64,000 nt of DNA. Source: Bradyrhizobium cosmicum. GTDB lineage: Bacteria; Pseudomonadota; Alphaproteobacteria; Rhizobiales; Xanthobacteraceae. Shown here piece after piece: positions 11,456 through 54,290 of the stretch (the first letter of the stretch is position 1; every line of letters begins with the position of its first letter). The notes beneath the pieces are model-generated. The model did not search any database. It had not been told where the DNA came from and worked only from the letters and a program-made list of their open reading frames with translations. Location: assembly GCF_007290395.2 (NCBI RefSeq), contig NZ_CP041656.2:2852001-2916000 (forward strand), given 5' to 3'. The translations under genes were made by a program, and so were the position numbers.

Positions 11456-11482
11456 AAAAAGTTGCGGCCAGGCTTTGGGGGA
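11456..11482. repeat. attL core, 27-bp direct repeat
   Basis: The same 27 bases recur at 54264-54290. The core starts with five A residues and carries one arm of a GC-rich hairpin (GCGGCCAGGCTT). The integrase gene ends 34 bases to the right. Confidence 0.92.
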
Positions 11483-11515: not shown

Positions 11516-12616
11516 TCAGTCGTTGACCGCTTTTCCCCGTTTAGTCCCCATTGCGGGCAGGCTGTCGACGCGATCCCATTCGTCGCGCGGGACCACGTGC
11601 GAGTAGCGCATCGCGCTGCGCGGGTCGCGCCAGTTCTGGGTCGCGACCAGGCCCTGCACGTCGGCGCCGCCATACATGCGCATCCAGGTCGCCCAGGTGT
11701 GCCGGAAGGTGTGGAAGGTGACGAAGGCGTATTTGAACGCCGGCTTTTTCCAGCCGGTCGGGCGGCGCTTGGGGCAGGGAAGGCCTGCCGCGGCCATCGT
11801 GGCGCGCAGCAGCAGGTGTTTGAAGTGCCCGCCCTCCTTGAACCGGAACAGCCGCTCGCGCCCCTGGATGGCCTGCAGGTGCGTCTGCAGGCGTACTGCG
11901 ACCTCCTCCCGCAGGCGCAGCATGCGCGGGTCTCCGTTCTTGGAGGTCTTCAGCCATAGGGCGAAGTCGGCCGGCCTTGTATCGGCCGCGCGCGCATTGA
12001 GGCCCTCGCCCTTTCGGATTCCGGTGTAGAGCAGCAACAGCAGATAAAGCTCGAGCTCCTCGTCGATCGACCTGGCGGCGTCCAGAATTTCGAACGCGGC
12101 CTCCGGCCACATGAATTCCTTGCGCTGGCGGCCCTTGGAGCCCTTTGGCCGCTTGAATGTCGGCGCCTTGTCGCCGAGCGCATGGCGGATGATCGCGATC
12201 GCCGGCACGTAGACCGCGCGGTTTTTATAATCGGGGGCGCCGTGCGGCAGCAGGGTATTGGCGGCGGCGTCGATCGCGGCCTGGTCGATCGCCTCGATCG
12301 GTGTCTCCCGGAAGTGCCGCAGCAGCTTGGGGACATGGCGGCGTTCGCCGCCGGCCTGCATGTAGGCGTTGGCGGCCGTCAGGAATGTCGGCCGCCCGGG
12401 ATCAGGCTTAACGTCCGGGGCTGGATATTGCCTGTGTTCTTCGATGCATCGCTCGATCTCGTCGAGCTTTTCAAGAGCGATGCGTCGTTTGTGAGTGCCG
12501 CTGCTAACTTCCACGCGGACTCCGAGGTAGGTTCCTCGGATCTCGAAGTTCGGCGTCTTGCCCTTGCGCGGCGGCCGGAGCTTGAGGGGCACTTGAGCGT
12601 CTCCCGTAACGCACAC
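11516..12616 (-). CDS. int: tyrosine-type phage integrase
   Basis: The 366-residue product has an N-terminal arm/core-binding part and a C-terminal catalytic domain with R201 (LLLYTGIRKGEG), K223 or K226, H302 and R305 (FHTFRHTWATW), a W329 at the usual His/Trp position and the nucleophile Y338 (SAMRYSHV). It would integrate the phage at the 27-bp core beside it. Its first 238 bases overlap the excisionase-like gene in another frame, and the ATG at 12616 or a slightly later start is possible. It is the last gene of the leftward integration operon. Confidence 0.93.
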   Translation of the reverse strand: MCVTGDAQVPLKLRPPRKGKTPNFEIRGTYLGVRVEVSSGTHKRRIALEKLDEIERCIEEHRQYPAPDVKPDPGRPTFLTAANAYMQAGGERRHVPKLLRHFRETPIEAIDQAAIDAAANTLLPHGAPDYKNRAVYVPAIAIIRHALGDKAPTFKRPKGSKGRQRKEFMWPEAAFEILDAARSIDEELELYLLLLLYTGIRKGEGLNARAADTRPADFALWLKTSKNGDPRMLRLREEVAVRLQTHLQAIQGRERLFRFKEGGHFKHLLLRATMAAAGLPCPKRRPTGWKKPAFKYAFVTFHTFRHTWATWMRMYGGADVQGLVATQNWRDPRSAMRYSHVVPRDEWDRVDSLPAMGTKRGKAVND

Positions 12617-14112: not shown

Positions 14113-14481
14113 CTAGCATTTCACCTGGACCAGATACTCGATCATTGGCTTGGTGCCGCCAAGGTAAGTCCCTGTGGTGATTTGACTTTCTCCAACAACT
14201 TTAGGGTTGGCGCATTGTTTGCTCAGGAGCCTGAGGGCCATCCCGTCTCGCACGTCCTTGTTTTCCGGGTTGTATCCTAAGTCGACCACGTTCTTGATTC
14301 TGGCGACGTAGTCATAGGGCGCGCCGGGAGGCGCGGGATCGACGCGCAGATCGCCATAGCGCTGCTCTGTTGCCATCCAGACATCGGAGTTTGAACAGCC
14401 GCCAAGCAGGCTCGAAATCAGGAGGAGCGCAGCCGTGTATTGATTAAGCGGCGTTTCCCGGCCGCATCTAGCCTGCGCCAT
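14113..14481 (-). CDS. lipoprotein co-transcribed with the phage repressor
   Basis: The 122-residue product has a signal peptide with a good lipobox (LLGGC, lipid-modified C29), so it should be anchored in the envelope. The only usable start, ATG at 14481, overlaps the repressor gene by 64 bases. Being expressed with the repressor makes it a candidate lysogenic-conversion protein, for example one that blocks adsorption or DNA entry of related phages. That role is inferred from position and localisation; no family is recognised. Confidence 0.7.
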   Translation of the reverse strand: MAQARCGRETPLNQYTAALLLISSLLGGCSNSDVWMATEQRYGDLRVDPAPPGAPYDYVARIKNVVDLGYNPENKDVRDGMALRLLSKQCANPKVVGESQITTGTYLGGTKPMIEYLVQVKC

Positions 14482-15089
14482 TGCCCCCTCCTGACGACCG
14501 AGTGGATCTCGGTTGCGTTCTGTATCTTCACATTCCGCATGGGCGGGGCGTTGAAGCTTTCGAGGTCAAATGACCCCTTGCGGGCGCCGCCGACGATTCG
14601 CTTCAGGTATCGATTGCCGTCCAGCGTAGTCACTAGGCTTTCGAAATTGAGGAGTTCGCCGGGAGACTGCGGGCGTTTCAGCACGATGATCACGTCGCCA
14701 TCGTCATAGCGCGGGAACATGGAGTCGCCGCTGACCTGATAGGCCGCTGCATTGTCGGGGAGCGGGAAGGGCACTTCGATCTCGTCGAGTTCGTCGCCGG
14801 CGCTGTCGTTTTCAGCACTGGTCTCGATTGCGCCGCCGGCCCCTACTAGGCCTTCAATCCGGACCACGTTCTTTCTGGTCGGTTCGCCGTCGCCTGACAG
14901 GAGCCAGCCGGCGGAGACCTTGAAGGCTCGGCCGTACCGCTCTGCGGCGTCCACAGGAAATCCGTTCTGCCCGTTCTCATGGGCGCCATAGGTCGAAGTC
15001 GGCCAGCCAAACCGCTTGGCTGCCGCCATTGCCGAGGAAAAACCAGCCTTTTCGCGCGCTCGGCGCAGTCGATCGCCCATCGTCTCCAT
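14418..15089 (-). CDS. CI/LexA-type phage repressor, S24 peptidase
   Basis: The product is 223 residues from the ATG at 15089 (another in-frame ATG is at 15080). An N-terminal helix-turn-helix (RLRRAREKAGFSSAMAAAKR and TYGAHENG) is followed by an S24 domain with the catalytic Ser123 (GDSMFPRY) and Lys163 (NRYLKRI). An Ala-Gly pair at 84-85 (LVGAGGA) is a candidate autocleavage site, which would allow RecA-dependent induction. It faces the Cro-like gene across an operator region and is the likely master repressor. Confidence 0.9.
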   Translation of the reverse strand: METMGDRLRRAREKAGFSSAMAAAKRFGWPTSTYGAHENGQNGFPVDAAERYGRAFKVSAGWLLSGDGEPTRKNVVRIEGLVGAGGAIETSAENDSAGDELDEIEVPFPLPDNAAAYQVSGDSMFPRYDDGDVIIVLKRPQSPGELLNFESLVTTLDGNRYLKRIVGGARKGSFDLESFNAPPMRNVKIQNATEIHSVVRRGQWRRLDAAGKRRLINTRLRSS

Positions 15090-15107
15090 CGGGCAATCAT
15101 CACAAAT

Positions 15108-15143
15108 CGTGTTGACACAAGTCATGTTGACGACATCAACACG
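15108..15143. promoter_or_regulatory. repressor operator region between cI and cro
   Basis: Half-sites CGTGTTGA (15108-15115), TGTTGA (15125-15130) and TCAACACG (15136-15143) lie in the divergent gap. The last two form an inverted repeat with a 5-base centre. A TTGACA hexamer at 15112-15117 is a possible rightward -35 box inside the site. The arrangement is typical of a phage immunity region. Confidence 0.65.
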
Positions 15144-15162
15144 AATCATGTAGGCGGCTCAT

Positions 15163-20532: not shown

Positions 20533-20744
20533 GGCGCCACAAATGGAGCGAAAAGGTCCGTCAGCCGAACGGCGACAGCCGCAGGATCTGCACGCGCGAG
20601 GGCTGCGACATCGTCTGCGTCTCCTGCCACGGCATCGATGCGCACGGCCGCCAGGATCACTGGAAGGAATGGTGGCGCGGCAGCGAGAAAATCCAGGTCG
20701 GTGGCCTGACGCCGGCGTGTGAGCCCGTCGAGGTCGACGCATGA
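20529..20744 (+). CDS. small Cys/His protein
   Basis: The 71-residue product starts with GTG overlapping the previous stop (GTGA). It has CTREGCDIVCVSCHG, which looks like a small zinc site, and several tryptophans. No family is recognised. Confidence 0.55.
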   Translation: MRRHKWSEKVRQPNGDSRRICTREGCDIVCVSCHGIDAHGRQDHWKEWWRGSEKIQVGGLTPACEPVEVDA

Positions 20745-25682: not shown

Positions 25683-27449
25683 ATGCAGGACTGGAAACCG
25701 CAGACGGAAGCGTCCGCGCTCGCGATCGCGGCGGTCGCCGGGCCGCAGCTCTATCCGGAGCCGGAGTGGCTGACGCACGCGGTCGAGGAGCTGGGCTATT
25801 CCTGGGCGCGGATCGCGTGGCAGCGCGCGTCCGCGGTGCCGGGCGCCTGGTACGATGCGACCAAGGCGCAGGCCGTGGTCGACCGCTGGCCGACCTGGTT
25901 CAAACTGACGGTCGGTCGCTTTGCGGGTCAGCCGTTCCGCCTGTCGCCTTGGCAGGACGTCATCGTCCGGCTGCTGATCGGCTGGAAAGCGCCGACCGAG
26001 ATCCTCGATCCGGAGACGATGCAGCCGACGCAGGTGCACGTCCGGCTGTTCTGCGAGCTGCGGCTGTGGGTGCCGCGCAAGAACGGCAAGAGCGAGTTTC
26101 TGGCCGCGCTGGCGCTGCTGTTCTGGGCGATCGAGGGGCAGCGCCGCGGCGCGGGCTTCTGCTTTGCGCACGACGAGAGTCAGGCGCGCGAGGTGTTCGA
26201 CAAAATGGGCGACATGATCGCCTATGCGCCCGCCGTGTTTCGATCGCCGACCACGGGCGAGCCGATCAAGGTGTTTGCCAAGCAGCTCTGGAATGCGGAG
26301 CTGCGCTCGGCGTTCCGGCTGATGCCGGGCAAGGCCAAGGGCAAGCACGGGCGCGCGCCGTTCGTCACGGTCGGCGACGAGATGCACGAATGGGTGTCGA
26401 CCGAGCTGGCCGACACGCTGCGCCAGGGCGAGGGCGCCTCGCTGCAGCCGATCCGGCTCTATGCGTCGACCGCGGGTCTGAAGTCGCAAAAGACCGGCTT
26501 CAAGCTGTGGGAAGAGTCGCAGAAGATCCTCGACGGACGGATCGACGACCCGACCACGCTGGTCGTGATCTTCGCGGCGGACGAGGACGCCGACTGGCGC
26601 GATCAGAAGGCCTGGCGGCTGGCGAATCCGTCGCTCGGCCTGTCGCCGACCAAGGCGTTCCTCGAGCGCGAGATCTCAAAGGCCGTGACGCCGGCGGCCG
26701 AGGCCGCGTTTCGCCGCTACCATCTGAATCAGTGGGTCGAGGAGTTCGCGCGCTGGATCTCGGTGCGCAAATGGGATGCGGCGACGCCCGACGCCAATGC
26801 GTGGAAAACTCAGTACGACACGCTGAAGGGCCGCGAGTGCATCCTCAGTTTCGACTCCACGAAATCGTTCGACCTGGCGTCGATGTGTCTGCGTTTCCCG
26901 CCGGTCGAGCCGGGCGAGCGCACCAGATTCGTCTGGCGGTTCTGGTTGCCGACCGAGACGATCGAGGCGCGGACCAAGGCCGAGCGGACGCCGTTCGATC
27001 AATGGGCGGAAAACGGCGCGATCACGCCAATCCCGGGCGGTGTGTTCGAGCTGGACTATGCGATCGAGGCAGCGCTGCAGGCCTGCGCCGACTTCCGGGT
27101 CACCAAGATCGGCTGGGACGCCTGGAATGCGCTCGAATTCTACAACCGGATGGTCAAGCGCGGCCAGCCGGAGGATCTGTTCGTCGAGATGCGGTTCGGC
27201 ACCAAGTCGCTGGGGCAGGGCACCAAGGAATTCGAACGCAAGGTGTTCGGCGGCGAGATGGATCACGGCGGCCATCCGGTCGCGCGCTGGATGATCGGGC
27301 ACTGCAACGTGCGCTTTGACGAAAACATGAATTACGTGCCGGCAAAGAAGCGATCCGAGGACTCGATCGACGGCATCGTCGCCGCGGTCATGACCGAGGC
27401 GATTGCGATGACGCCGACTGCACCTGTTGCGGGGCTGGTTTTGCTATGA
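25683..27449 (+). CDS. terL: terminase large subunit
   Basis: The 588-residue product has a Walker A-like P-loop (PRKNGKSE, 131-138), a Walker B region (VTVGDEMHEW, about 228-237), and a C-terminal RNase H-like nuclease domain starting ILSFDSTKSFDLASM with a later acidic site (KIGWDAWNALE). It is the ATP-driven motor and nuclease for DNA packaging. ATG at 25683 is used; a nearby out-of-frame ATG at 25679 opens only a shadow frame. Its stop overlaps the portal start. Confidence 0.93.
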   Translation: MQDWKPQTEASALAIAAVAGPQLYPEPEWLTHAVEELGYSWARIAWQRASAVPGAWYDATKAQAVVDRWPTWFKLTVGRFAGQPFRLSPWQDVIVRLLIGWKAPTEILDPETMQPTQVHVRLFCELRLWVPRKNGKSEFLAALALLFWAIEGQRRGAGFCFAHDESQAREVFDKMGDMIAYAPAVFRSPTTGEPIKVFAKQLWNAELRSAFRLMPGKAKGKHGRAPFVTVGDEMHEWVSTELADTLRQGEGASLQPIRLYASTAGLKSQKTGFKLWEESQKILDGRIDDPTTLVVIFAADEDADWRDQKAWRLANPSLGLSPTKAFLEREISKAVTPAAEAAFRRYHLNQWVEEFARWISVRKWDAATPDANAWKTQYDTLKGRECILSFDSTKSFDLASMCLRFPPVEPGERTRFVWRFWLPTETIEARTKAERTPFDQWAENGAITPIPGGVFELDYAIEAALQACADFRVTKIGWDAWNALEFYNRMVKRGQPEDLFVEMRFGTKSLGQGTKEFERKVFGGEMDHGGHPVARWMIGHCNVRFDENMNYVPAKKRSEDSIDGIVAAVMTEAIAMTPTAPVAGLVLL

Positions 27450-28780
27450 GCTGGATCACTGACATCCTCGGCACGTCGGCGCCTGCGGTTCGCGTGCCGG
27501 AGGATTTTGAACCGCCGAAAAACGCGACGCAGATGGTGCCGCTGACCGAGATCGTGCGCGGTTCGCAGTCGTGGTCCGACATGTTCGGCCCGGCAATGGC
27601 TGGCGGCTTGCCGGCGCTGACCGAATATTCCGCCGCGACGGTGACGGCGATCTATGCCTGCTGGTCGCTGATTGCTGGCGCGATTCAGACGCTGCCGATC
27701 AACATGATGAACGTCGACATTCCGACCGGCGAACGCGAGCGGATCTTCGACGACCCCCTGCTGTGGGTGCTAAATGAGGAGATGTCGGAGCGCTGGCCGG
27801 CGCCGATCGGCTGGGAATACCTGGTCAAGTCTATCATGGCCGAGGGTGATGCGTTCGCGATCATCCGCCGCGACCGCATGTTCAAGCCGATCGCGCTCGA
27901 GCCCGTGCATCCGCTGCGCGTGATGAATGGTATCGTGCCGCAAACCGGTCGCATGGTGTATCGGATCGCGCCGGAGTATCTCGCCAACGGTCAGGTGATC
28001 GGCAGCGCGCGCGATTTCGACCAGGATGACATCATCCACATTCCCGGTTTCGGCTTCGATGGTTTGCGCGGCATGACGCCGCTGCGCTACTCGCTGCGCA
28101 ACGCCGGCGGCGTCGCGATCGCCGCGCAGGAATATGCCGCTCGGTTCTTCACCAACGGCGCGCGGCCCGACTACGCGCTATCGACCGATCAGAACCTTGG
28201 CGAGCCGCGCATCAAGGAATTGCAGGGCCTGATCGACGAGCGGCATCGGTCGACCGAGAACGCGCATCGGCCGATGCTGCTGCATTCTGGCCTCAAGCTG
28301 ACCAGCTTGCAGATCTCGGCGAACGACATGCAGCTGCTCGGCCAGCGCCAGTTCCAGATCGAGGAGATCGCGCGCGCCTATGGCGTGCCGCCCTTCATGA
28401 TCGGCCACAACGAAAAGACCACGTCATGGGGCTCCGGTGTCGAGGCCATGTCGATCGGCTTCGTCCGGTACACGTTGCGGCCGTACCTCAACAAGATCGA
28501 GCGCGAGCTTGATCGAAAGCTGTTCCGCACGCGCTCGCGGGTCACGGTGTTCGATACCTCGGACCTCGAGCAGGCCGACACCAAGAACCTGTACGAATCG
28601 TTGCGCGTCGGCGTCGGCCGCGCCGGCGAGCCGCGCATCCTCACGCCGAATGAGGCGCGCGCCAAACTGCGCATGCCGCGCAAGACAGATGCCGACTCCG
28701 ACAAGCTCGGCGTCAACGCCGGCGCCGCGCCCGCGGCCAAGGATCAGGGCTCAACCGAACCAAAGGACGCTGCAGCATGA
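27446..28780 (+). CDS. HK97-family portal protein
   Basis: The 444-residue product shows the HK97 portal pattern (TVTAIYACWSLIAGAIQTLP, GWEYLVKSIMAEGDAFAIIR, EEIARAYGVPPFMIGHNEKT). It forms the dodecameric vertex for DNA entry and tail joining. ATGA overlaps link it to terL and the protease. Confidence 0.93.
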   Translation: MSWITDILGTSAPAVRVPEDFEPPKNATQMVPLTEIVRGSQSWSDMFGPAMAGGLPALTEYSAATVTAIYACWSLIAGAIQTLPINMMNVDIPTGERERIFDDPLLWVLNEEMSERWPAPIGWEYLVKSIMAEGDAFAIIRRDRMFKPIALEPVHPLRVMNGIVPQTGRMVYRIAPEYLANGQVIGSARDFDQDDIIHIPGFGFDGLRGMTPLRYSLRNAGGVAIAAQEYAARFFTNGARPDYALSTDQNLGEPRIKELQGLIDERHRSTENAHRPMLLHSGLKLTSLQISANDMQLLGQRQFQIEEIARAYGVPPFMIGHNEKTTSWGSGVEAMSIGFVRYTLRPYLNKIERELDRKLFRTRSRVTVFDTSDLEQADTKNLYESLRVGVGRAGEPRILTPNEARAKLRMPRKTDADSDKLGVNAGAAPAAKDQGSTEPKDAAA

Positions 28781-29583
28781 GGGATCGTCGTCTGTTCAAC
28801 CTGTTCGCGGCCAATTCTAAGCGCGGCTCGTTCCGCGCCGATGCGGCCAGCAACACGATCGAGCTCTATGACCTGATCGTGTCGAGCGAGATCGAGGCCG
28901 AATGGTATGGCGGCGTCTCGCTGCAGGGCTTTGCCAAGGCCATGCGCGGCATGGCCGGCACGGTGCACGTGCGCATCAATTCGCCGGGCGGGGACGTCTT
29001 TGCCGGCGTCGGCATCGCGCAGATCATGCGCGAATACGACGGCGAGATCGTCGCGCATGTCGACGGCTACGCCGCTTCAGCTGCGTCGGTCGTTGCGATT
29101 GCCGCCGACAAGGTGGTGATGGCGCCGGCGTCGATGATGATGATCCACAAGGCCTGGACGTGGGGCATCGGCAACGCTGATGACCTGATGGCGACCGCCG
29201 AGCTGCTGGAAAAGATCGATGGCCAGCTCGCCGAGGGCTACGCCGCGCGCGGCAGCAAGGATGCTGCGACATTCATGAACCTGATGGCGGCCGAGACCTG
29301 GCTGACGCCGCAAGAGGCGATCGACTGCGGTCTGGCCGACGAAATGGCCGGCGAAAAGGACAAGGCCGCGACCAACGCGCGGGCGCGCTGGGACGTCTCG
29401 GCCTTTGAACGCGCGCCGGCGCCGCCGGCGGCGCAGGGCGATGACAAGATCCGCGCGGCAGTCGAGGCGGCGCTCGCTGAGCGCGATCGGCAGGATCGCG
29501 ACAAGGCCGCGGCGATCGTGGCTGCCGAACAAGAGCGGGGGCAGCGCCGGCGGCGCGCTCAGTTGCTCGCAAGGACTGCCTAA
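28777..29583 (+). CDS. ClpP-like head maturation protease
   Basis: The 268-residue product has a ClpP fold with INSPGGDVFAGVGI, the nucleophile S101 (GYAASAAS), H124 (MMIHKAW) and an acidic residue in the TPQEAIDCGLADE region. It should cleave capsid and scaffold during prohead maturation. The C-terminal charged helix may act as the scaffold. Confidence 0.9.
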   Translation: MRDRRLFNLFAANSKRGSFRADAASNTIELYDLIVSSEIEAEWYGGVSLQGFAKAMRGMAGTVHVRINSPGGDVFAGVGIAQIMREYDGEIVAHVDGYAASAASVVAIAADKVVMAPASMMMIHKAWTWGIGNADDLMATAELLEKIDGQLAEGYAARGSKDAATFMNLMAAETWLTPQEAIDCGLADEMAGEKDKAATNARARWDVSAFERAPAPPAAQGDDKIRAAVEAALAERDRQDRDKAAAIVAAEQERGQRRRRAQLLARTA

Positions 29584-29665
29584 GCGCGAGCCGCGCCGAG
29601 CAGAACAAGCGCCGTGGCCAATTCGGGCCAGGGCGGTCTCTAGCCATGTCATGAAAGGACAGCAA

Positions 29666-30913
29666 ATGGCTTCACTTCAGGAGTTGAGAGCGCAGGGCGC
29701 GGCCATCGTGGTCGCGATGCAGGCGATGGCCGACAAGCCCGCCGACAAATGGGATGCCAAAGTCGACGGACCGGAGTGGGATAAGCTCGACGCGCAGCTC
29801 GTCGATATCCAGGCGAACATCAAGCGCCAGGAGCGCGTGATTCAGGCGGCTGCCGACAACCTGCAGCGTGACTTGGTCGCCGACGCTGCTTCGCGCGTCG
29901 GCCAGGATCAGAAGTCGGAAGCCTCGACGATCTTCGCCAAATGGGTGCGCAACCCTGATGGGTTGTCTGCCGAGGATTGGACCAAGATCCGCGCAACCAT
30001 GTCGACCACGACGGGCAGCCAGGGCGGCTACACGGTGCAGACCGAAGTCCAGAAGACGGTGCTGGAAGCGCTCAAGGCGTTCGGCGGCATGCGTGCCGTC
30101 GCGACGGTGCTGCAGACGTCGCAGGGTAACCAGATGAACTATCCGACTTCGGATGGCACCTCAGAGACGGGTGAGATCATCGGCCAGAATACGACCGCCA
30201 CGGCGCTCGATCCCGCGTTCAACTTCGTGCCCCTGAATGTCTACAAGTTCTCGTCCAAGATCATGGCGGTGCCGTTCGAGCTGCTGCAGGATAGCGAGGT
30301 CGACGTCGAGGGCTTCGTGATCAGGCGTGCGACGCAGCGCCTCGGCCGCATCACCAATACCAAGTTCACGGTGGGTGCCGGCGATGGCTCGAACGAGCCG
30401 AACGGCATCGTCACGGCGGCCACGACCGGCGTCACGGCGGGCAACGGCACCAGCCAGGTCACGGCGATCGTCTATGACAGCCTGATCGACATGCAGCATT
30501 CGGTCGATCCCGCCTATCGCGAGACCGGCGAGTGCAAGTGGATGATGCACGACTCCAGCGTCAAGGTGATCCGCAAGATCAAGGACGGCCAGTCGCGGCC
30601 GATCTTCGTGCCCGGCTGGGATTTCGCGATCCCGACCGGCGGCAAGGCCGGCAAGATCCCGGATTCGCTGCTCGGCGATCCCATCCAGGTCAACCAGGAC
30701 ATGGCGGTGATGGCTGCGTCGGCGAAGTCGATCGCTTACGGCAAGCTCAACGAATACACGATCCGCGACGTGATGGACGTGACCATGTTCCGCTTTACGG
30801 ACTCTGCCTACACCAAGCTCGGCCAGGTCGGCTTCCTGGCCTGGCTGCGCTCCGGCGGCAATCTGATCGATGTCGGCGGTGCGGTGAAGCTGTTCGTCAA
30901 CGCGGCGTCCTGA
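29666..30913 (+). CDS. HK97-type major capsid protein
   Basis: The 415-residue product has an N-terminal coiled-coil scaffold part (about 1-100), followed by the HK97 capsid core (TTTGSQGGYTVQTEVQKTVL, AVPFELLQDSEVDVEGFVIR, FRFTDSAYTKLGQVGFLAWL). ATG at 29666 follows AAAGGA at 6 bases; another ATG is at 29651. The protease upstream probably removes the N-terminal part. Confidence 0.93.
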   Translation: MASLQELRAQGAAIVVAMQAMADKPADKWDAKVDGPEWDKLDAQLVDIQANIKRQERVIQAAADNLQRDLVADAASRVGQDQKSEASTIFAKWVRNPDGLSAEDWTKIRATMSTTTGSQGGYTVQTEVQKTVLEALKAFGGMRAVATVLQTSQGNQMNYPTSDGTSETGEIIGQNTTATALDPAFNFVPLNVYKFSSKIMAVPFELLQDSEVDVEGFVIRRATQRLGRITNTKFTVGAGDGSNEPNGIVTAATTGVTAGNGTSQVTAIVYDSLIDMQHSVDPAYRETGECKWMMHDSSVKVIRKIKDGQSRPIFVPGWDFAIPTGGKAGKIPDSLLGDPIQVNQDMAVMAASAKSIAYGKLNEYTIRDVMDVTMFRFTDSAYTKLGQVGFLAWLRSGGNLIDVGGAVKLFVNAAS

Positions 30914-31393: not shown

Positions 31394-32098
31394 ATGTTCC
31401 GCAATAACGACATCAGCGATGGCGGCCGTCCGGTCTTGATCGAACCGGCGGACGACGAGGTGATCTCGCTCGCCGACTGCAAGAAGATGCTGGGCATTGC
31501 CTCGGCCAGCCAGGACCCGATCATCCAGGCGGCCATTTGGGCGGCGACGGACAATCTCGACGCCGCGTCCGGCGTGCTCAACCGCGCCTTGCGCGAGCAG
31601 ACCTGGGAGCTGCAGCTGCGCTCGTTCAACGATCGCCGCGCCGCCGTTGCGCCGTTCAACAACCCGATGGCGATCCCGCTGCCTTATCCGCCGCTGCTCA
31701 AGGTCGTTAGCGTCAAATATCTGGACCAGGCCGGCGTCGACCAGCCGCTCGCGCTCGGCAGCGGCTACCGCATTCTCGGCCTCGGCGCGCCGCTGGAAAA
31801 GCAGGCGATCGCGCCGCCGTTCCAGGGCGCCTGGCCGAATGCGCGCGTCGACGATGCCTCCGTCCGCATCCGCTTCACCTGCGGCTATGACGAGGACCAG
31901 AACGTCATGCCGCGCCAGCTCAAGATGGCTGTGTGCCTGGCTGTGCGCGACCTGATGCCGCTGATGTCGCGCGACCAGATGGTTTTCGAGGACCGCGTCG
32001 AGGGCGTCGGCTCCAAGCGCTACCAGAGCAATCCGGAATTCGCGGCCGTGACGCAAAAGGCGATCGCGAGCCTGCTGGCCAATCTCCGCGTCGAATAG
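31394..32098 (+). CDS. head-tail connector protein, gp6-like
   Basis: The 234-residue product fits the HK97 gp6-type adaptor: an N-terminal helical region starting ISLADCKKMLGIASASQDPI, a central beta region (PPLLKVVSVKYLDQAG) and a C-terminal helix. It would attach below the portal. Confidence 0.75.
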   Translation: MFRNNDISDGGRPVLIEPADDEVISLADCKKMLGIASASQDPIIQAAIWAATDNLDAASGVLNRALREQTWELQLRSFNDRRAAVAPFNNPMAIPLPYPPLLKVVSVKYLDQAGVDQPLALGSGYRILGLGAPLEKQAIAPPFQGAWPNARVDDASVRIRFTCGYDEDQNVMPRQLKMAVCLAVRDLMPLMSRDQMVFEDRVEGVGSKRYQSNPEFAAVTQKAIASLLANLRVE

Positions 32099-40207: not shown

Positions 40208-40548
40208 TCGACGTCCTGACCTGGCAGCTGGATTGGGCGGACAAGATCGATGGCATCGTCGCGGCGGCGACAGGGGCAGGCATTCCGCTGTCCTCGCTGC
40301 CGTGCGTTGCCAGCCGGGTCGATCTTTTCCCGCATCTGGCTTTCGAGGCTTACGCGTTTCGTGAGCTGTCGACCGATCGCCCGGTTGGCTTCGATCGCGG
40401 CGTCATTCCCTGGCGCTCGATCGACGCTTTCGCCGAGCGTTACGGCCTGGTCGGTGACGAGTTCGATCGCCTGGTCGGCATCATCCGCGCGATGGATGCC
40501 GCCTATCTCGGCCACTTGAAAGCCAGAGAGCAAAATGCCGACGCTTGA
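40204..40548 (+). CDS. T-like extension of the tail chaperone, made by -1 frameshift
   Basis: This frame has no in-frame ATG, GTG or TTG near its 5' end but encodes a good protein (LIDVLTWQLDWADKIDGIVA and onward to LKAREQNADA). It is reached from the A_AAA_AAC site and gives a fusion of 251 residues with the short form. The N-terminal part resembles the T domain of gpGT proteins, which binds the tube protein. It overlaps the tape measure start by 14 bases. Confidence 0.82.
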   Translation: MIDVLTWQLDWADKIDGIVAAATGAGIPLSSLPCVASRVDLFPHLAFEAYAFRELSTDRPVGFDRGVIPWRSIDAFAERYGLVGDEFDRLVGIIRAMDAAYLGHLKAREQNADA

Positions 40549-43063
40549 CACCATCCGGACGGTTACGGTTCGCGGCCGCGACGAGGGTCTCGATCAAACG
40601 CGGGCCGCGCTCGACCGGCTGACGCAGTCGATCAACGCCGCCAACCAGAACCTGTCTCAGACGAGGTCGATCGCGAATGACAACCGCGAGGGCTGGTCGC
40701 TGACGGGCGAGGGCGCCGCGTCGGCTGCGAACCATCTGCGCCAGGCTGCCGAGGCCGCCTATGCATTCTCGCCGGCGTTCCGCGGCGTCGTCAACGAAAT
40801 GGCCGTGCCGGCGCTCAAGGGCGCCGGCGTGGCGCTGGAGGGCGTTGCGACCGGCATCGTGACGGCGACCAATGTCGCCGGCACGGGCCTGGTGCGGCTC
40901 GGCACGGCGGCCGAGACCTCGTTACCGGCCTTCGCCGCGCTCGCCGGCAACGTCAAGGTTGCCGGCGCAGCCATGGAAGCTTTCAGTCCGACGCTGGGCG
41001 GCGCCGCGACCTCGATCATCGCGCGCCTGCTGCCGGCGCTGTCTCTGCTCGGCAAGGGACTGCTGATCTATGACGGCATCAAGCTGGTCACCGAGGCCTG
41101 GCGTCTCGGCAATGAGAGGCTCGCCGAATATGTCGCGCTGTCTGAAAAGGCCGCGGCATCCGGTGTGTCGACCGAGTTCTATCAGCGTATCGCCAAGGCG
41201 GCCGAGGATGCCAAGACGCCGGTCGCGGCGCTGACCGAGGCATTCAAGCAGCTGAGCGCTGCGGCCGCGCCGGTGCTTGGCGGCTCGACTGCTCAGAACC
41301 GGCTGGACGAGCTGGTCAAGGCCGGCAACTTCTCCGGCAACAGCGGCGTTGGCGCGCTCAAGGGCGCCAATTCGAACGAGGAACGGCTGCGCGCGCTGTC
41401 GGACCTGTACGACCAGGCGCTCGAAAAGGGCCAGCGCCTGGCCGCGCTCGATATCGTCAAGGCCTTCGGCGGCGACCAGCTCGCGGCCAGTCTCGCCAAG
41501 GATTCCGGCTATCTCGACAAGATGCTGGAATCGGCCGACGAGATCTCGGCCAAGGAGCTGATCTCGGCGGGCGATATCCAGCGCGCCGTCGACCTGCAGA
41601 ACCGGCTCGACGCCGCCGAAAAGATACTCTCGCAACGCTGGCATCCGGTCCAGGATCTGCTGACGCAGCTCGGGATCAAGATGAAGGAGATCTGGGTCGA
41701 CATCGTCGAGGCCATCGCCAAGGCGGCCGATGCGGTTTTCAAGGTCGGCGAACGCATTGCGGCGGCGCTGGCGCCTCTGCTCGAATTCATCCAGACCGCC
41801 GGCCAGCTGATCGGCAAGGCGGCGCCCTATATTGCGCAGGCATCGCCTGTCGGCATCCCGCTGGCAATCGGCGCGGCCTCGATCGGCGCGCTGTCGACAC
41901 CGTCGAGCGGCGTTGACCAGGCCGAGGCGCAGCGCGCGGCGCTGATGGCGGACGCGCGCCGGCGCCTGGCCGAGGGCCTCAACCGCATGAACGATCGGTC
42001 GAAAGCGCCGCAGGACGACGTCGCCGGCGCCTACGATCGCGCCAAGGAATCTGTCCTCAAATATATCGAGGTCACCAAGGCTGCTGCGCAGACGGTCGGC
42101 GAGTCCGCGGCCGCGCAGGAACGCGCCAAGGTCGTTGCGCAGTTGACGGCCGCGGCAATGAAGGACGGGACCACGATCACGGCGTCGATGCGCGAGGAGA
42201 TGCAGCGCCTGTCCGAGCAGGCCGGCAACGCAGCCGAGGCGCTGGAAAAGGCCAAGATCGCGTCCGACATCAAGTTCGATCGCGCGACCGCGTTGCTGTC
42301 GCCGCAGGACGTCCAGATCGCGCGGCAGCTGCGGGGGCTGTACGGCAGCGACATTCCGGCTGCGCTCAATTCGTCCTATGCGGCGGAGATCCGCTTCAAC
42401 AGCGCGATCCGCGAGCTGTCCTCGCTCGGCCAAGAGGTCAACCGCGGTTTCCTGACGGAGTTGGGGCAGAACCTGCGGAACGGCCAGAATTTCTGGCAGG
42501 CGTTCGAGGCCGCGGGCCTGTCGGCGCTGGGCAAGATCGCCGACAAGCTGGCGGCGATGGCAGCCGACCAGCTGTGGCAATCCGCTTTCGGCGGCTCCGG
42601 AGGCGGCACCGGCGGCCTGCTGGGCCTGCTCGGTGGCGGGGGAGGGTCCGCAGGTAGCGGCAGCGTGGCGACCTGGTCCTCCGGCCTTGGCGCCGGCACC
42701 GGGGGGTTGTCGATCCCGATGTATGCGAGCGGCACCAATTCAGCGCCGGGCGGCCCGGCGATGATCAATGAGGATGGCGGCGAGATCCTCGACCTGCCGT
42801 CCGGCACGCGCGTCATTCCGCATGACGTCTCGATGGCGATGGCGGGGCAGGGGGCGCTCGGTGGTGGCGCCAGCAGTGGTGGTGCGCAGGCGGTGCATGT
42901 GTCGGTCGGCGTCACCGTCGATGACGACGGCAAGCTGCAGGCCTACGTCAAGAACGTGTCCCATGCGACCACGGCTCAGGGCATCAGTGCCTACGCTAGC
43001 AGTCCGCAATTCGTCGACCATGTCGGCGCGGCCGGCAACAAGGCGAGGGCGCGGCGGCTATGA
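40535..43063 (+). CDS. tail tape measure protein
   Basis: The 842-residue product has long helices, hydrophobic segments in the first half (PALKGAGVALEGVATGIVTA, ARLLPALSLLGKGLLIYDGI) and a Gly-rich C-terminus (GGTGGLLGLLGGGGGSAGSG) followed by a short domain. It sets tail length and assists DNA ejection. It is short for the family, which predicts a short tail. Confidence 0.88.
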   Translation: MPTLDTIRTVTVRGRDEGLDQTRAALDRLTQSINAANQNLSQTRSIANDNREGWSLTGEGAASAANHLRQAAEAAYAFSPAFRGVVNEMAVPALKGAGVALEGVATGIVTATNVAGTGLVRLGTAAETSLPAFAALAGNVKVAGAAMEAFSPTLGGAATSIIARLLPALSLLGKGLLIYDGIKLVTEAWRLGNERLAEYVALSEKAAASGVSTEFYQRIAKAAEDAKTPVAALTEAFKQLSAAAAPVLGGSTAQNRLDELVKAGNFSGNSGVGALKGANSNEERLRALSDLYDQALEKGQRLAALDIVKAFGGDQLAASLAKDSGYLDKMLESADEISAKELISAGDIQRAVDLQNRLDAAEKILSQRWHPVQDLLTQLGIKMKEIWVDIVEAIAKAADAVFKVGERIAAALAPLLEFIQTAGQLIGKAAPYIAQASPVGIPLAIGAASIGALSTPSSGVDQAEAQRAALMADARRRLAEGLNRMNDRSKAPQDDVAGAYDRAKESVLKYIEVTKAAAQTVGESAAAQERAKVVAQLTAAAMKDGTTITASMREEMQRLSEQAGNAAEALEKAKIASDIKFDRATALLSPQDVQIARQLRGLYGSDIPAALNSSYAAEIRFNSAIRELSSLGQEVNRGFLTELGQNLRNGQNFWQAFEAAGLSALGKIADKLAAMAADQLWQSAFGGSGGGTGGLLGLLGGGGGSAGSGSVATWSSGLGAGTGGLSIPMYASGTNSAPGGPAMINEDGGEILDLPSGTRVIPHDVSMAMAGQGALGGGASSGGAQAVHVSVGVTVDDDGKLQAYVKNVSHATTAQGISAYASSPQFVDHVGAAGNKARARRL

Positions 43064-44828: not shown

Positions 44829-47792
44829 GTGGCGATTTTCACGGCTATTGCAGCGGCGATCGGCCTCACGGGGTTCTTTGCGGCGGCGTTCGTCACGGCC
44901 GCCTCGCTCGCGACCTCGATCGGCCTGTCCTATGCCGTCCGTGCGCTGTCCGGCCAGCCCAAGCAGTCGACCGACAGTTTCGGCGTGCAGGGCAAGCTCA
45001 CCGGCGGCGGCGACGTGCCGCGCTCGTTCGGGCTCGGCCGCCACGTCACGGCTGGCTCGCTGGTCTATGCCAACACCTGGGGCAACGGCTACGACACGCC
45101 GAACGCCTTCCTGACGCAGGTCATCGCGCTGTCGGATCTGCCCGGCGAGCGCCTGGTCGGCATGTGGGTGAACGGCGCCAAGGTCACGCTGGCCGAGGGC
45201 GATGCCAAGGCATCCGTGCTCGGCGCCGGCTCGCAGGGCTACGCCGTGCCGGAGTACATCCGCCCGCACAACGGCGAGGGTGCGGCGGTGCCGCATCTGT
45301 GGGTGAAGTTCTACGACGGCAGCCAGACCGGCGCCGACACCTTCACCTTGAGCGCGTCGTCGGCCGAGCGGCCCTATACCGCGGCCCATGTCGGCAAGGG
45401 TGTCTGCTACGCCGTCGTACATGCCTTCAACGACGAGAATCTGTGGAGCGGCTTTCCGACCCTCAAGTTCGAACTGTCCGGCGTGCCGCTCTACGATCCC
45501 TCCAAGGATTCGACGGTCGGCGGCTCCGGCGCGCATCGCTACGGCGATCCCTCGACCTGGGGTGGCGACGGCGACGATTTTCCGGTCGTGCAGATCCACA
45601 ACATCCTGCGCGGCTTCTCCTATAACGGCATCTGGCTGTACGGGCTGCAGAACACCTCCGCGGCGCGGCTGCCGGCCGTCAACTGGATCACGCAGATCGG
45701 CAAGTGCCGTACGACGGTCGTCGGCGCCGGCGGGCCGGAGCCGACCTATCGCACCGGCGGCCAGATCGATGTCAACGCGCAGCCCGCGAACGCGATCGAG
45801 GCCATCCTGACCGGCTGCCAGGGCCGCCTGTCGGAGATCGGCGGCTTCTACAAGATCCATGTCGGCGCGCCCGACACGCCGAGCTTTACGTTCTCCGACG
45901 ACGACATCCTGTCGACCGAGCCGCAGACCTATCGCCCGTTCTTTTCGCTGTCCGACAGCGTCAACGGTATCCAGGCGACCTATCCGGATCCGGCGCAGGG
46001 CTGGAACAGCGCGACGGCGCCCGCCTATTACCGGACCGACCTCGAGGCGCGGGACGGCGGCCGCCGGCTGATGGCCAATCCGGCGTTCGATTTCGTGCCC
46101 TATGCCGAGCAGGTGCAGCGGCTGCAGAAATCGGCGATCGAGGAGGCGCAGCGGGCGCGCACCCATGCCCTGACCTTGCCGCCGGCGTTCTGGATCGTCG
46201 AGCCCGGCGACGTCGGCGAATGGACGTCGTTGCGCAACGGCTACAGCGCCAAGCAATTCCGCGTCGACTCCGCGGTCGACAAGGCCAACCTCGACGTGAT
46301 GCTCGCCATCACCGAGGTCGATCCGTCCGATTACGACTGGAACACGGGAACGGATTTCACGCCGGTCACCGGCGGCGGCACCGTCTCCAATCCGCCGGCG
46401 CCGCAAGGCATCGCCAGCTTTGACGCGCTGCCCTATTCGCTGGTCGACGACAGCGGCATCATCCGCCGGCCTGCGATCCTGATCTCTTGGGACGGCTCGC
46501 AGCCCGGCATCAGCGGCGTGCAGTTCGAGGTGCGCCTTGCCTCGGACGGATCGAGCGTCACGCGCGGCCGCACCGATCGCGTCACCGCCGGCAATCTGAT
46601 CGTGACGCAGTCGATCCTGCCCGCCGTCACCTACCAGGTGCGCGGGCAATACATCCCGTCGGCGCCGCGCGACATGCTGTGGTCGGGCTGGATCACGGTG
46701 ACGACGCCTGACGTTCGCTTCACGCTGGCCGAGTTCGATGCCGCCGTCGCAGCGCAGGTGACCACGCTGCAGAACCAGCTCAACGACAATCTCGCGCTGG
46801 TCGAGCAGACCATCGCCAACGTCGCCGCCGGGCTTGCGGCCCGCGACTGGCGCGACAAGAAGGAATTGCGCTCGCAGCTCTCGGCGCGGTCCGATGATGC
46901 GCTGGCGCAGATCGACGACGTCCGCACGGTCGCGGTCGACACGCAGACGGCATTCGCATCGTTCTCGACGACGGCGACGGCGACCTTCGGCTCGACGACC
47001 GCCTTTGTCAGCCAGACCGCCGCGGCGATCGCAACCTATGACGGCTGGGGCGCGGCGCAATATGCCGTGACGCTCAACGTCGACGGCTACGCCACCGGCT
47101 TCAACCTGGTCAACGGCGGCAGCGGCACCTCGGCTTTTACGATCGTCGCCGACAAGTTCCAGGTGCAGCTGCCCGGCTACAATGGCAGCGCGCCGCAGCC
47201 GGTGTTCACCATCGGCACGCTCAACGGCGTCGCCGCGGTCGGATTGACCGGCAACGTCTATCTCGACGGAACGCTCAATGCGCGCGCGATCGTCGCGGGC
47301 TCGATCCTTGCGTCCAAGATCGCAGCCGGCGAGATCACCTCGGATTCCGGTGTGATCGGCGCGCTGGCGCTGAAGTCGCTGAGTATCGCCGACAATGCTG
47401 CGACGGTGCCGGCGATCCAGATCCTGGCCTCGAATACGTCGATCAGCGGTGGCACCAACTTTTTCAACTTCAATCTCAGTGTCGACACGACGGGGCTCTC
47501 CGGCAAGACCATCCCGATCTTTGCCAGCATCACGTTCAAATTCAGTTGCTCCTATGCCGGGGCAGGCACGCAGACGACGACATTCTATCTCTATGTCAAT
47601 GGAAGCATCGTCGATCGGCTCGACCTGCAGTGCGTCGCTGGGCTTTACATTCTCTCGATGTCCGGTGGGCGCAGCATCACGGGAACGGGTGGCATCGTTT
47701 CCGTGCCGATCGTGGTTCAGGGCTTCGCGGGCGGCGGCGCCGATGTCGTCAATGCCAATGCCTGCGTGTTTGCGATGGCGGCGAAGCGATGA
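44829..47792 (+). CDS. tail tip / host-specificity protein, J-like
   Basis: The 987-residue product starts with GTG. An N-terminal membrane-like hydrophobic part (AAAIGLTGFFAAAFVTAASL) is typical of J-like tail tips. The central hub region (VPRSFGLGRHVTAGSLVYAN, WITQIGKCRTTVVGAGG) is followed by a fibronectin-like part, a helical linker (about 640-700) and a C-terminal receptor domain (VNGGSGTSAFTIVADKFQVQ). It should recognise the host surface. Confidence 0.85.
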   Translation: MAIFTAIAAAIGLTGFFAAAFVTAASLATSIGLSYAVRALSGQPKQSTDSFGVQGKLTGGGDVPRSFGLGRHVTAGSLVYANTWGNGYDTPNAFLTQVIALSDLPGERLVGMWVNGAKVTLAEGDAKASVLGAGSQGYAVPEYIRPHNGEGAAVPHLWVKFYDGSQTGADTFTLSASSAERPYTAAHVGKGVCYAVVHAFNDENLWSGFPTLKFELSGVPLYDPSKDSTVGGSGAHRYGDPSTWGGDGDDFPVVQIHNILRGFSYNGIWLYGLQNTSAARLPAVNWITQIGKCRTTVVGAGGPEPTYRTGGQIDVNAQPANAIEAILTGCQGRLSEIGGFYKIHVGAPDTPSFTFSDDDILSTEPQTYRPFFSLSDSVNGIQATYPDPAQGWNSATAPAYYRTDLEARDGGRRLMANPAFDFVPYAEQVQRLQKSAIEEAQRARTHALTLPPAFWIVEPGDVGEWTSLRNGYSAKQFRVDSAVDKANLDVMLAITEVDPSDYDWNTGTDFTPVTGGGTVSNPPAPQGIASFDALPYSLVDDSGIIRRPAILISWDGSQPGISGVQFEVRLASDGSSVTRGRTDRVTAGNLIVTQSILPAVTYQVRGQYIPSAPRDMLWSGWITVTTPDVRFTLAEFDAAVAAQVTTLQNQLNDNLALVEQTIANVAAGLAARDWRDKKELRSQLSARSDDALAQIDDVRTVAVDTQTAFASFSTTATATFGSTTAFVSQTAAAIATYDGWGAAQYAVTLNVDGYATGFNLVNGGSGTSAFTIVADKFQVQLPGYNGSAPQPVFTIGTLNGVAAVGLTGNVYLDGTLNARAIVAGSILASKIAAGEITSDSGVIGALALKSLSIADNAATVPAIQILASNTSISGGTNFFNFNLSVDTTGLSGKTIPIFASITFKFSCSYAGAGTQTTTFYLYVNGSIVDRLDLQCVAGLYILSMSGGRSITGTGGIVSVPIVVQGFAGGGADVVNANACVFAMAAKR

Positions 47793-50243: not shown

Positions 50244-51467
50244 ATGCTCGACCTGCATGGCATTTCGCGCGCGTCGTTCGATCTTGTCGTCGCCGAGGAG
50301 GTGACGAGCCAGGCCGTCTATGAGCGGAAATACCGCCACGCGCTGGAATATCCCGGCGAGCAGAGCGGCCCGACCGGCGGCATCGGCTACGATTTCGGCA
50401 CGCAGACCAAGCCGCAGATCCGCGCCGACTGGGCCGACAAGGTCGACGCCGCGATGCTGAGCATCCTGCTCGGCGCCTCCGGCAAGCGCGGCGAGGCGGC
50501 TGCCGCCTATTGCCGCGCGACCCGCGGGCAGGTCGACATTCCCTGGCTGGTCGCGCTCGACGTGTTCGCCAATCATGACCTGCCGCGCTATCTCGCCATC
50601 CTCGAGCGCTATTGTCCCGGCGCCGGCGAGCTGGGGCCGGACTGCAAGGGCGTGCTGTGGTCGATCGCCTTCAACCGCGACGCCGCGGGCTTTGTGAAGC
50701 CCGGCCCGCGCTACGCCGAGATGCGCGAGATCCGCGCCTGCGTCGCCGGCGGCGACCTTGCCCGCATCCCCGGCCTGATCCGCTCGATGCAGCGGCTCTG
50801 GCCGAAAACCTCCGGCCTCTATCGTCGCCGCGAGCTTGAAGCGCGGCTGTTCGAGAAGGGCCTGGCCGAGCACCATCCGGACCAGCATGAAAGACTCGAG
50901 CACGTCGCCCCGGCGCCGGATCCCGATGTCGTGGTGCAGGTGCAGGCGCGGCTGCGCGAGCTGGGCTATTACGACACGGGCGCCGTCGACGGCCAGCTGG
51001 TGCCGAAGGGGCGCACCGAGGCGGCGATCCTCAGCTTTCGGCATGAGCACGATCTGCCGTTGGTGCCCGGCATCGACGACGATCTGCTCGCCGCGCTGGC
51101 GCGGGCCGAGCCGCGGAAGGTCGCGGAGGTTCGCGCCAACGCCACGACGCAGGATCTGCGCGAGCAGGGCGTCGAGACCATCTCCATCACCGACCAGGTC
51201 AAGCGCTGGGCCGGCAGTCTGTTCGGCACGGGCGGCAGCCTGTCGCTCGCCGGTCTGCTGGCCTGGATCACCGACAAGGCGTCGGCGGTGTCGGGTGCAA
51301 AGGACGCGGTCGGCGGCCTCGGCATTCCGCCGCAGGCGATCGTCTGGCTGCTCGCGGCCGTGGTGGTGCTGGCGATCGTCGCCGGCCTCGGCGTGCTGAT
51401 CTGGTCGGTCGCGCACAAGATCGAGGTCAAGCGCCTGGCCGACTACCGCTCGGGCAAGAACACATGA
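50244..51467 (+). CDS. endolysin with peptidoglycan-binding domain and C-terminal membrane span
   Basis: The 407-residue product has an N-terminal lysozyme-like domain (EYPGEQSGPTGGIGYDFGTQ with E residues upstream), a PG_binding_1 domain (about 232-285; VQARLRELGYYDTGAVDGQL) and a C-terminal membrane helix (IVWLLAAVVVLAIVAGLGVL) with a basic tail. Muramidase activity is likely from the fold. The membrane anchor is uncommon and may tether the enzyme until the holin acts. ATGA overlap links it to Rz. Confidence 0.78.
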   Translation: MLDLHGISRASFDLVVAEEVTSQAVYERKYRHALEYPGEQSGPTGGIGYDFGTQTKPQIRADWADKVDAAMLSILLGASGKRGEAAAAYCRATRGQVDIPWLVALDVFANHDLPRYLAILERYCPGAGELGPDCKGVLWSIAFNRDAAGFVKPGPRYAEMREIRACVAGGDLARIPGLIRSMQRLWPKTSGLYRRRELEARLFEKGLAEHHPDQHERLEHVAPAPDPDVVVQVQARLRELGYYDTGAVDGQLVPKGRTEAAILSFRHEHDLPLVPGIDDDLLAALARAEPRKVAEVRANATTQDLREQGVETISITDQVKRWAGSLFGTGGSLSLAGLLAWITDKASAVSGAKDAVGGLGIPPQAIVWLLAAVVVLAIVAGLGVLIWSVAHKIEVKRLADYRSGKNT

Positions 51468-51973
51468 GCGGCGCGGTCATCGCTGCGATCGTGCAGCTGC
51501 TCGGCCTCGCCGGTGTCAAGCTGTCGCCGTTCAAAGCCGGCGCGCTTCTGGCCGGCGTGCTCGCGCTCGTCATCGGCATCGCGGCCGTCGCCGCGGGTTT
51601 CCACCTCTACAACGCAGGCTATGCGGCCGCGGACGGCGCCTGGCGCGAGAAGGCGCTCGACGCGCAGCTGGCGGCCGCGCGCAAGGATCTCCTCGAGGCC
51701 AACCGCGCCGCCGGCGATGCCGTGCTGCGGGCGAAGGCGATCGAGCAGCAGGCAGAGCAGGAAAGGGTGGGGACAGATGCCTATGTCGACCAATTGCGCA
51801 AGCAGAACGAGGCGCTCGCTGCGGCGGGCAAGCCGAACGTCTGTGGTCTTACTTGCGATGATCTGCGCGGGCTGCGCATCAAATCCGCTGCCTGCCCCGC
51901 TCCGGCGGGAGCTGCCGGCGGCGCCGGCGCAGATCTTCGCGCCCGTTGGCGATCCCAGCGCAAGCCTCAATAG
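51464..51973 (+). CDS. Rz-like i-spanin
   Basis: The 169-residue product has an N-terminal membrane helix (AGALLAGVLALVIGIAAVAA), then a long periplasmic coiled coil (ALDAQLAAARKDLLEANRAA, LRKQNEALAAAG), as in inner-membrane spanins. The Rz1-like gene is nested in its 3' part. Confidence 0.78.
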   Translation: MSGAVIAAIVQLLGLAGVKLSPFKAGALLAGVLALVIGIAAVAAGFHLYNAGYAAADGAWREKALDAQLAAARKDLLEANRAAGDAVLRAKAIEQQAEQERVGTDAYVDQLRKQNEALAAAGKPNVCGLTCDDLRGLRIKSAACPAPAGAAGGAGADLRARWRSQRKPQ

Positions 51974-52094
51974 CGACGCACGCGAGCGCCTGGCGCGCAC
52001 GCGCGATGCGCTGAAGGAAGCCAACCAACGGATCGAGGCCGGGCACGCCTGGTACGACGGCGTGCGGCAGAGCTACGGCGGCGAGGCGAAATAA
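51777..52094 (+). CDS. Rz1-like o-spanin lipoprotein
   Basis: The 105-residue product starts inside the Rz gene in another frame (ATG at 51777, or 51783). It has a basic n-region (RTRRSLRRASRTS), a hydrophobic core (VVLLAMIC) and a lipid-attachment C33 in CAGC; the -3 residue is Cys instead of Leu. A Pro/Ala-rich segment and a helix follow. Fusion of inner and outer membranes at lysis would need both spanins. Confidence 0.75.
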   Translation: MPMSTNCASRTRRSLRRASRTSVVLLAMICAGCASNPLPAPLRRELPAAPAQIFAPVGDPSASLNSDARERLARTRDALKEANQRIEAGHAWYDGVRQSYGGEAK

Positions 52095-52097: not shown

Positions 52098-52466
52098 ATG
52101 CAGGAATGGTCAATCATCCTGTCGGCGATGGGGCTCGCCGTCGTCATCCTGTCCAGCGTCATCGGCCTGGTGTGGAAGCTGTCGCGGATCGAGCTGGCGC
52201 TGCGCTCGGAGTTCGGCAAGGCGGTCTCGGACTTCCAGGACGAGCACACGCGCGAGATCGGCGAGATGAAAGCGGCGCACGCCAAGGAAACCGCCGAGCT
52301 GCACGCCAAGGTCTACCAGGTCGAGATCTGGGCGCGCGACGAGTTCGTCCGCAAGAACAGCTTCGAGATCGTGGTCGCGCGGATGGAGCGCGGCCTGTCC
52401 GAGCTGCGCGGCGACATCACCGGCCGGCTCGACAAGATGTCGGAAAAAATGGATCGCCAGAAATGA
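52098..52466 (+). CDS. membrane protein of lysis cassette, holin or accessory
   Basis: The 122-residue product has one N-terminal membrane helix (IILSAMGLAVVILSSVIGLV) and a long charged coiled coil (AAHAKETAELHAKVYQVEIW). It follows Rz1 by 3 bases and overlaps the next gene by ATGA. It might be a holin partner or antiholin; the topology is not decisive. Confidence 0.6.
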   Translation: MQEWSIILSAMGLAVVILSSVIGLVWKLSRIELALRSEFGKAVSDFQDEHTREIGEMKAAHAKETAELHAKVYQVEIWARDEFVRKNSFEIVVARMERGLSELRGDITGRLDKMSEKMDRQK

Positions 52467-52699
52467 AAACCGAGCCGCAGATCCTGCGCCACGCGCTCGA
52501 CCAGGTCGCATTCAGTGCGGCCAGCATCAAGGTCCTGGTCGCGCTCGCGATCGGCATTGCGCTGATCGCGCTGTTCGGCGCCATCGCCGAGGCCCGGCGC
52601 CGGCCGACCTCCGCTGCGGCTTGGCTCGCCGGCGCCGCGATCGTGGCGGCGATCGTCGCAGCCGTCCTGGTCGGCAGCGTGACCGCGACCTACGCCTGA
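52463..52699 (+). CDS. holin-like two-span membrane protein
   Basis: The 78-residue product has two membrane helices (IKVLVALAIGIALIALFGAI and AAWLAGAAIVAAIVAAVLVG) separated by a short basic loop. Size, two spans and position in the lysis cassette fit a class II holin. Confidence 0.7.
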   Translation: MKTEPQILRHALDQVAFSAASIKVLVALAIGIALIALFGAIAEARRRPTSAAAWLAGAAIVAAIVAAVLVGSVTATYA

Positions 52700-52759
52700 C
52701 GGGTGTCTTGAGAGATCCGCGCCGGGCGGTTTCCCGGCATCACAAGCAGGAGAGCCAAG

Positions 52760-52987
52760 ATGGCTTCTGTCGATAGCGCGTCCGATCAGCGGACCGTCAA
52801 CAACACGATGCGGCATCAGTATCGCGTGCTGAGCGATGCCGAGAAAGCGAACATGAGCGCGATCAAGGACAAGGGGCTGGAGCTGCTCGAGCTGATCTCC
52901 GGCATGGGCAACAGCCGCGAGATTTCGATCGCCAAGACCAAGACCGAGGAAGCTGTCATGTGGGCGGTGAAGCACATCACTGCCTGA
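52760..52987 (+). CDS. Acb2/Tad1-like protein, candidate anti-CBASS nucleotide sponge
   Basis: The 75-residue product carries the short pattern of the Acb2/Tad1 hairpin family (DUF7681): YRVLSDAEKANMSAIKDKGL, a helical hairpin, then IAKTKTEEAVMWAVKHITA. Known Acb2 proteins form small helical oligomers that trap cyclic di- and trinucleotides made by CBASS, and Tad1 traps gcADPR made by Thoeris. Family membership is a pattern match from memory. Ligand type cannot be told from sequence. ATG follows AGGAGAG. The gene has its own short leader and a terminator after it. Confidence 0.7.
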   Translation: MASVDSASDQRTVNNTMRHQYRVLSDAEKANMSAIKDKGLELLELISGMGNSREISIAKTKTEEAVMWAVKHITA

Positions 52988-52992: not shown

Positions 52993-53082
52993 GAGGGGAC
53001 CTCGACGTCCCCTCGCTTCACGGTTTGCGAGAACCTCCAAAGACTGGCCCGGCGCGAGGTGCCCCTCGCGGCCGGGCTTTTT
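52993..53082 (+). terminator. tandem hairpins ending the late region
   Basis: A GAGGGGAC/GTCCCCTC hairpin (52993-53014) is followed by a larger stem (53047-53077; GCCCGGCGCGAGG pairing with CCTCGCGGCCGGGC, one bulge) and a T-run (53078-53082). The second is a good Rho-independent terminator for the rightward late transcript. Confidence 0.75.
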
Positions 53083-54263: not shown

Positions 54264-54290
54264 AAAAAGTTGCGGCCAGGCTTTGGGGGA
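54264..54290. repeat. attR core, 27-bp direct repeat
   Basis: Identical to 11456-11482. To its right the host sequence completes the hairpin arm AAGCCTGGCCGC. Confidence 0.92.

Follow-up and report, generated by a model that had tools for sequence, protein, structure and literature searches.

A compact member of the Acb2/Tad1 hairpin family encoded near the end of a Bradyrhizobium cosmicum prophage

Acb2 proteins are hexamers, with pockets between the six protomers and a short N-terminal helix ahead of the hairpin. According to a review (PMC12043709), the studied members of the Acb2/Tad1 family sequester nucleotide signals and leave them uncut; cyclic di- and trinucleotides are the ligands of Acb2, and Tad1 additionally binds glycocyclic ADP-ribose (gcADPR). 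The review also describes an N-terminal antiparallel beta-sheet domain in Tad1, with loops around the gcADPR pocket, and Acb2 activity in induction but not in lysogeny. The present analysis concerns a 64,000-nucleotide stretch of B. cosmicum DNA (contig NZ_CP041656.2, positions 2,852,001 to 2,916,000), hereafter the window, and a gene for a 75-residue protein within it. This protein belongs to the Acb2/Tad1 hairpin family (Pfam PF24729). By analogy with studied members, it is probably an oligomeric sponge for the cyclic nucleotides of cyclic-oligonucleotide-based antiphage signaling systems (CBASS).

Membership in the family is carried by profile searches and by the predicted fold. The PF24729 match (69.9 bits, where the cut-off is 27; E=2e-19) covers residues 21-74 of the protein and profile positions 2-57 of 58, and a whole-genome search found one copy of the family in the host (7.27 Mb, single contig). 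Pairwise comparison with the PDB gave weak scores (E of 0.8 and 1); profile-against-PDB comparison matched Vs.4, Acb2 and Tad1. The fold predicted for a single chain is a two-helix antiparallel hairpin (residues 26-47 and 53-74) with a predicted local distance difference test score (pLDDT) of about 97, preceded by a low-confidence helix at residues 9-12, in a stretch with pLDDT of about 56-60. When this fold was compared with the PDB by Foldseek, the first seven chains were Acb2 or its T4 homolog Vs.4, with Tad1 chains ranking lower; the remaining rows, a tRNA methyltransferase and coiled coils, are taken as common hairpin shapes. The original prediction, made from the DNA and its translated open reading frames (ORFs), had proposed this family from hairpin patterns, with a profile search among the suggested checks. 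The profile search and the single-chain fold agree with the assignment, and the patterns YRVLS, IKDKG and IAKTKTEEAVMWAVKHIT are all present. An NCBIfam search of the protein returned no family, and the top PHROGs matches, phrog_717 (C-terminal part, E=1.3e-6) and phrog_1454 (E=2.3e-6), are without a named function. The phrog_717 profile has 289 positions, and the hairpin matches its C-terminal positions 207-281, suggesting a hairpin fused to a larger domain.

The gene is real and maintained, as indicated by the family matches, the confirmed relatives and the ratio of nonsynonymous to synonymous substitution rates (dN/dS). All 3422 of the 3422 candidates from the protein database match at E<=1e-3. 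Among the 120 matches listed, every protein carries PF24729 and two (P0052 and P0097) are named Acb2/Tad1 domain proteins by their source. In viral contigs, 116 candidate stretches yielded 103 confirmed relatives, 80 of which were kept (64-100% identical); in genome contigs, 207 candidate stretches yielded 13 (55-82% identical). The latter comprise 12 that we take to be from alphaproteobacteria and one from an Arenimonas metagenome bin. Of 54 loci, 23 encode a protein of the same length; with one identical sequence and one saturated at synonymous sites set aside, dN/dS against the 21 usable relatives is 0.07-0.48, revealing purifying selection. A chance ORF is ruled out by the PF24729 E value, the database matches and dN/dS. 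One record bearing the gene (L099, 5989-6219 of NC_023841.1) is titled as an algal virus, from Dunaliella, yet the gene lies there amid tailed-phage genes; the true host of this phage may be a bacterium.

Alignment with PaMx33 Acb2, T4 Vs.4 and SBSphiJ7 Tad1 places Y21, K36, R53 and T60 at Y11, K26, R67 and T74 of PaMx33 Acb2, where Y11 and K26 are associated with binding of cyclic dinucleotides and R67 with that of trinucleotides. All four are invariant across the chosen relatives (36 of 36), together with R11, N14, R18, H19 and others, giving 22 invariant columns across these sequences. Y21 also aligns with Y8 of T4 Acb2. According to PMC12657218, a Y8A substitution in the T4 protein disrupted cyclic dinucleotide binding and abolished Panoptes activation, the activity tested, and F82 stacks on the ligand. 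In the prophage protein, T74 occupies the position of F82; this is compatible with binding because PaMx33 Acb2 has alanine at that position. By analogy with Acb2, the small hairpin protein would assemble into an oligomer, of six copies in known members. The inter-protomer pockets would hold cyclic nucleotide signals uncut, most likely CBASS cyclic di- or trinucleotides. The protein would be made with the lysis and late genes upon prophage induction or phage growth, and effector proteins would be kept from activation until virions are finished. According to PMC12043709, the major head protein can be a trigger sensed by Thoeris, which would make a sponge produced late sensible. We infer the oligomer, the ligand, the anti-CBASS effect and the timing.

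The second helix bears on which signal would be held. Over 20 positions it is identical to SBSphiJ7 Tad1 at 11, to T4 Vs.4 at 10 and to PaMx33 Acb2 at 5, and it carries the pattern RE..A.TK.EEA.MW. Together with ThsB_TIR matches in the host family (46 of 248 genomes), this likeness would fit a protein that, like Tad1, acts mainly against Thoeris as a sponge for gcADPR or related cyclic ADP-ribose isomers. However, 75 residues with no predicted beta strand leave the protein without the Tad1-type N-terminal domain, YRxLS, K and G in the N-terminal half resemble Acb2, and the Tad1 chains fall below Acb2 in the structural ranking. A mainly anti-Thoeris function is unlikely. Potential targets are present among the likely hosts, since SMODS matches occur in 43 of the same 248 genomes in addition to the 46 with ThsB_TIR. 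Profile searches of the host's own genome gave no SMODS or ThsB_TIR match, and a SAVED search of it, likewise without a match, was uninformative, as no control gave a match either. Among the 248 genomes, 9 had PF24729, and SMODS or ThsB_TIR was found in 5 of these compared with 80 of 248 overall; the 9 are too few to interpret and include other subtypes. In contig C35 of genome G119 (locus L104), a distant PF24729 match (31932-32078) lies 21 kb from a SMODS nucleotidyltransferase match (10591-11073).

The original prediction also described an alphaproteobacterial subtype with a shortened N-terminus. The N-terminus is instead extended, with 20 residues before the conserved tyrosine compared with 10 in PaMx33 Acb2 and 7 in T4; it is the hairpin tip (24 residues fewer than PaMx33 Acb2 between the aligned lysine and arginine) and the C-terminal tail that are short. 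The subtype itself is consistent with the genome-contig relatives and with a survey, small in sample, of 18 PF24729 loci in the host phylum (17 genomes other than the host's). The RHxY form was found at six of the 18 loci (L101, L102, L109, L112, L113 and L114), every one from the host's class, and was absent from the five loci of other classes. Four of those five (L108, L110, L116 and L117) are PaMx33 Acb2-like, and the fifth, L111, has a Tad1-like second helix. L111 is a PF24729 member whose N-terminal part is unrelated. Within the host's class, L105, L115 and L100 have a further form that bears GYRP or a tail, and no clear form could be read at L103, L104, L106 and L107. The compact subtype with its conserved N-terminal RTxNNxxRHxYR segment may be new, and among the 18 loci it was seen only in the host's class. 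It is conceivable, but doubtful, that this subtype is a distinct sponge class, in which the RTxNNxxRHxYR segment would substitute for the missing tip and C-terminal tail in the pocket and a signal other than those of the studied Acb2 and Tad1 proteins would be held, perhaps one from a defense common in alphaproteobacteria. The second helix, nearer to Tad1 and T4 Acb2 than to PaMx33 Acb2, would fit such a class. No study of alphaproteobacterial Acb2 was found in a literature search that lacked most subscription papers, brought up no primary Acb2 or Tad1 structure paper and was weak for rhizobial genera. The family is known, and within the literature searched the compact branch appears to be without a published test.

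Across phages, the gene behaves as a mobile accessory gene, carried by mostly unrelated phages and often, though not always, located among late genes. The median pair identity of the protein among 54 loci is 69%, and a neighbor within 4 kb is common to 52 of 1431 pairs; no fixed partner gene was found in the 4-kb flanks of these loci. Thirteen proteins of the window were also compared with 93 loci and matched in L002 only, although with flanks of about 6-8 kb head genes could not be expected; the 78-residue protein encoded directly upstream gave the same outcome. A neighbor scan of 57 loci covered 171 downstream and 171 upstream ORFs, of which 105 and 116 were compared with PHROGs; four duplicate loci, all but one of the other-strand genes and a few more genes were removed manually. 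Among the matching families listed (the first 25 out of 105 and out of 187), each present in five members at most, those of terminase, portal, head morphogenesis and endolysin are the commonest named neighbors. Sinorhizobium phage Aussie has the gene between a head-tail adaptor and a stopper, and in the SI2 virus it is flanked by hypothetical genes, which come after a virion protein and a holin. The Aussie arrangement, the structural and lysis neighbors, and a number of invariant columns above expectation for an arms-race protein could indicate a hairpin turned to another use, as a late accessory or morphogenesis protein and no sponge. This seems quite improbable, given the invariant pocket tyrosine, the absence of a fixed partner even among pairs at least 80% identical (19 of 133 with a common neighbor within 4 kb), and the replication-type genes that also occur among the neighbors listed (DNA primase, five downstream and two upstream; polymerase/primase; RNA ligase).

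The prophage that carries the putative sponge gene appears to be complete, extending from integrase to tail fiber and lysis genes (Table 1). A 27-bp direct repeat, exact and longer than any in 30 shuffles (16 at most), marks its two ends, and it spans 42.8 kb (window 11456-54290) with the integrase first. The putative sponge gene, 1.3 kb short of the right end, is the last convincing gene on the late strand. A prophage location, a position after lysis genes and a terminator of its own had all been proposed, and they stand in light of the phage-family matches and repeats, the spanin and weak endolysin matches upstream, and the hairpin that follows the gene. The ORF starts with ATG, seven bases after the end of the likely ribosome-binding site. 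The downstream hairpin is strong (-30.4 kcal/mol, z -2.73; equaled by 2 of 200 shuffles). A simple terminator scan reported only a single site on the opposite strand, and a bulged base is perhaps the cause of this miss. The gene is probably read together with the preceding genes, since a sigma-70 scan found no promoter at it. In the lysis region, three small ORFs have no PHROG match: that of the possible spanin partner, whose Pfam DUF2514 score is below cut-off, that of the 122-residue protein and that of the 78-residue protein, which has no Pfam family either. Elsewhere in the prophage, the left half encodes two DNA methyltransferase-type proteins, for which an anti-restriction role is possible (17362-19461, MT-A70 within a 699-residue protein; 20741-21625, D12 class), and a 267-residue protein containing a GapR-like DNA-binding domain (15838-16641).

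Table 1. Features of the prophage and of the hairpin-protein gene, in window coordinates (HTH, helix-turn-helix; aa, residues).
Feature	Position	Strand	Evidence
Left attachment-site repeat, 27 bp	11456..11482	.	Exact repeat search
Tyrosine integrase	11516..12616	-	Family searches
HTH and S24 peptidase repressor	14418..15149	-	Family search
Terminase large subunit	25683..27449	+	Family searches
Portal protein	27446..28780	+	PHROG search
Major head protein	29405..30913	+	PHROG search
Tape-measure-like protein, weak	40535..43063	+	E=7.6e-4
Tail fiber protein	44829..47792	+	PHROG search
Lysin-like protein	50244..51467	+	Peptidoglycan-binding domain below cut-off; weak endolysin match, E=2.4e-4
Possible inner-membrane spanin partner	51464..51973	+	Position; N-terminal hydrophobic stretch; overlaps next ORF
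Rz-like spanin (phrog_456)	51513..52094	+	E=2.5e-9
122-aa protein, N-terminal hydrophobic stretch	52098..52466	+	No family over cut-off
78-aa small hydrophobic protein, holin-like by eye, directly upstream of the 75-aa gene	52463..52699	+	Read within a longer ORF; no Pfam or PHROG family
AGGAG, likely ribosome-binding site	52748..52752	+	Read from sequence
Acb2/Tad1 hairpin protein (PF24729), 75 aa	52760..52987	+	ORF list, profile search, alignment, fold
Likely intrinsic terminator, TTTTT after a hairpin of 14 pairs	53046..53082	+	Hairpin folding test
Right attachment-site repeat, identical 27 bp	54264..54290	.	Exact repeat search

Finally, a sponge-family gene is confirmed in an apparently intact prophage, and it points to a large and tightly conserved branch in alphaproteobacterial phages. 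If the ligand differs from that of known members, the branch would reveal the nucleotide signals of importance in these hosts; if not, the protein would illustrate how compact a sponge can be. Among described proteins, Acb2 homolog 43 (PDB 9ptq, 76 residues) resembles it in compact size and in RE.S..KTK.EEA, but the pairwise score is weak (E=1), and no paper on this homolog was found in the literature searched. Tad1 (SBSphiJ7 and CbTad1) shares the second-helix pattern, yet its N-terminal beta domain is absent here, where there are 75 residues compared with 142 in SBSphiJ7. The top structural match is T4 Acb2 (Vs.4; PDB 7uq2), whose TIAKTK..EA.MWA aligns with SIAKTK..EAVMWA of the prophage protein; unlike Vs.4, the latter lacks F82 and the tail that follows, the N-terminal segments differ, and Vs.4 has no arginine at the position of R53. 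Acb2 of the Pseudomonas phages PaMx33 and PaP2 (p26; PDB 8h2j and 8ixz) is only 26% identical and has a C-terminal PDSF tail that is missing here. It nevertheless shares the hairpin family and the four aligned residues, and in PaMx33, too, its gene is the final one ahead of an annotated terminator.
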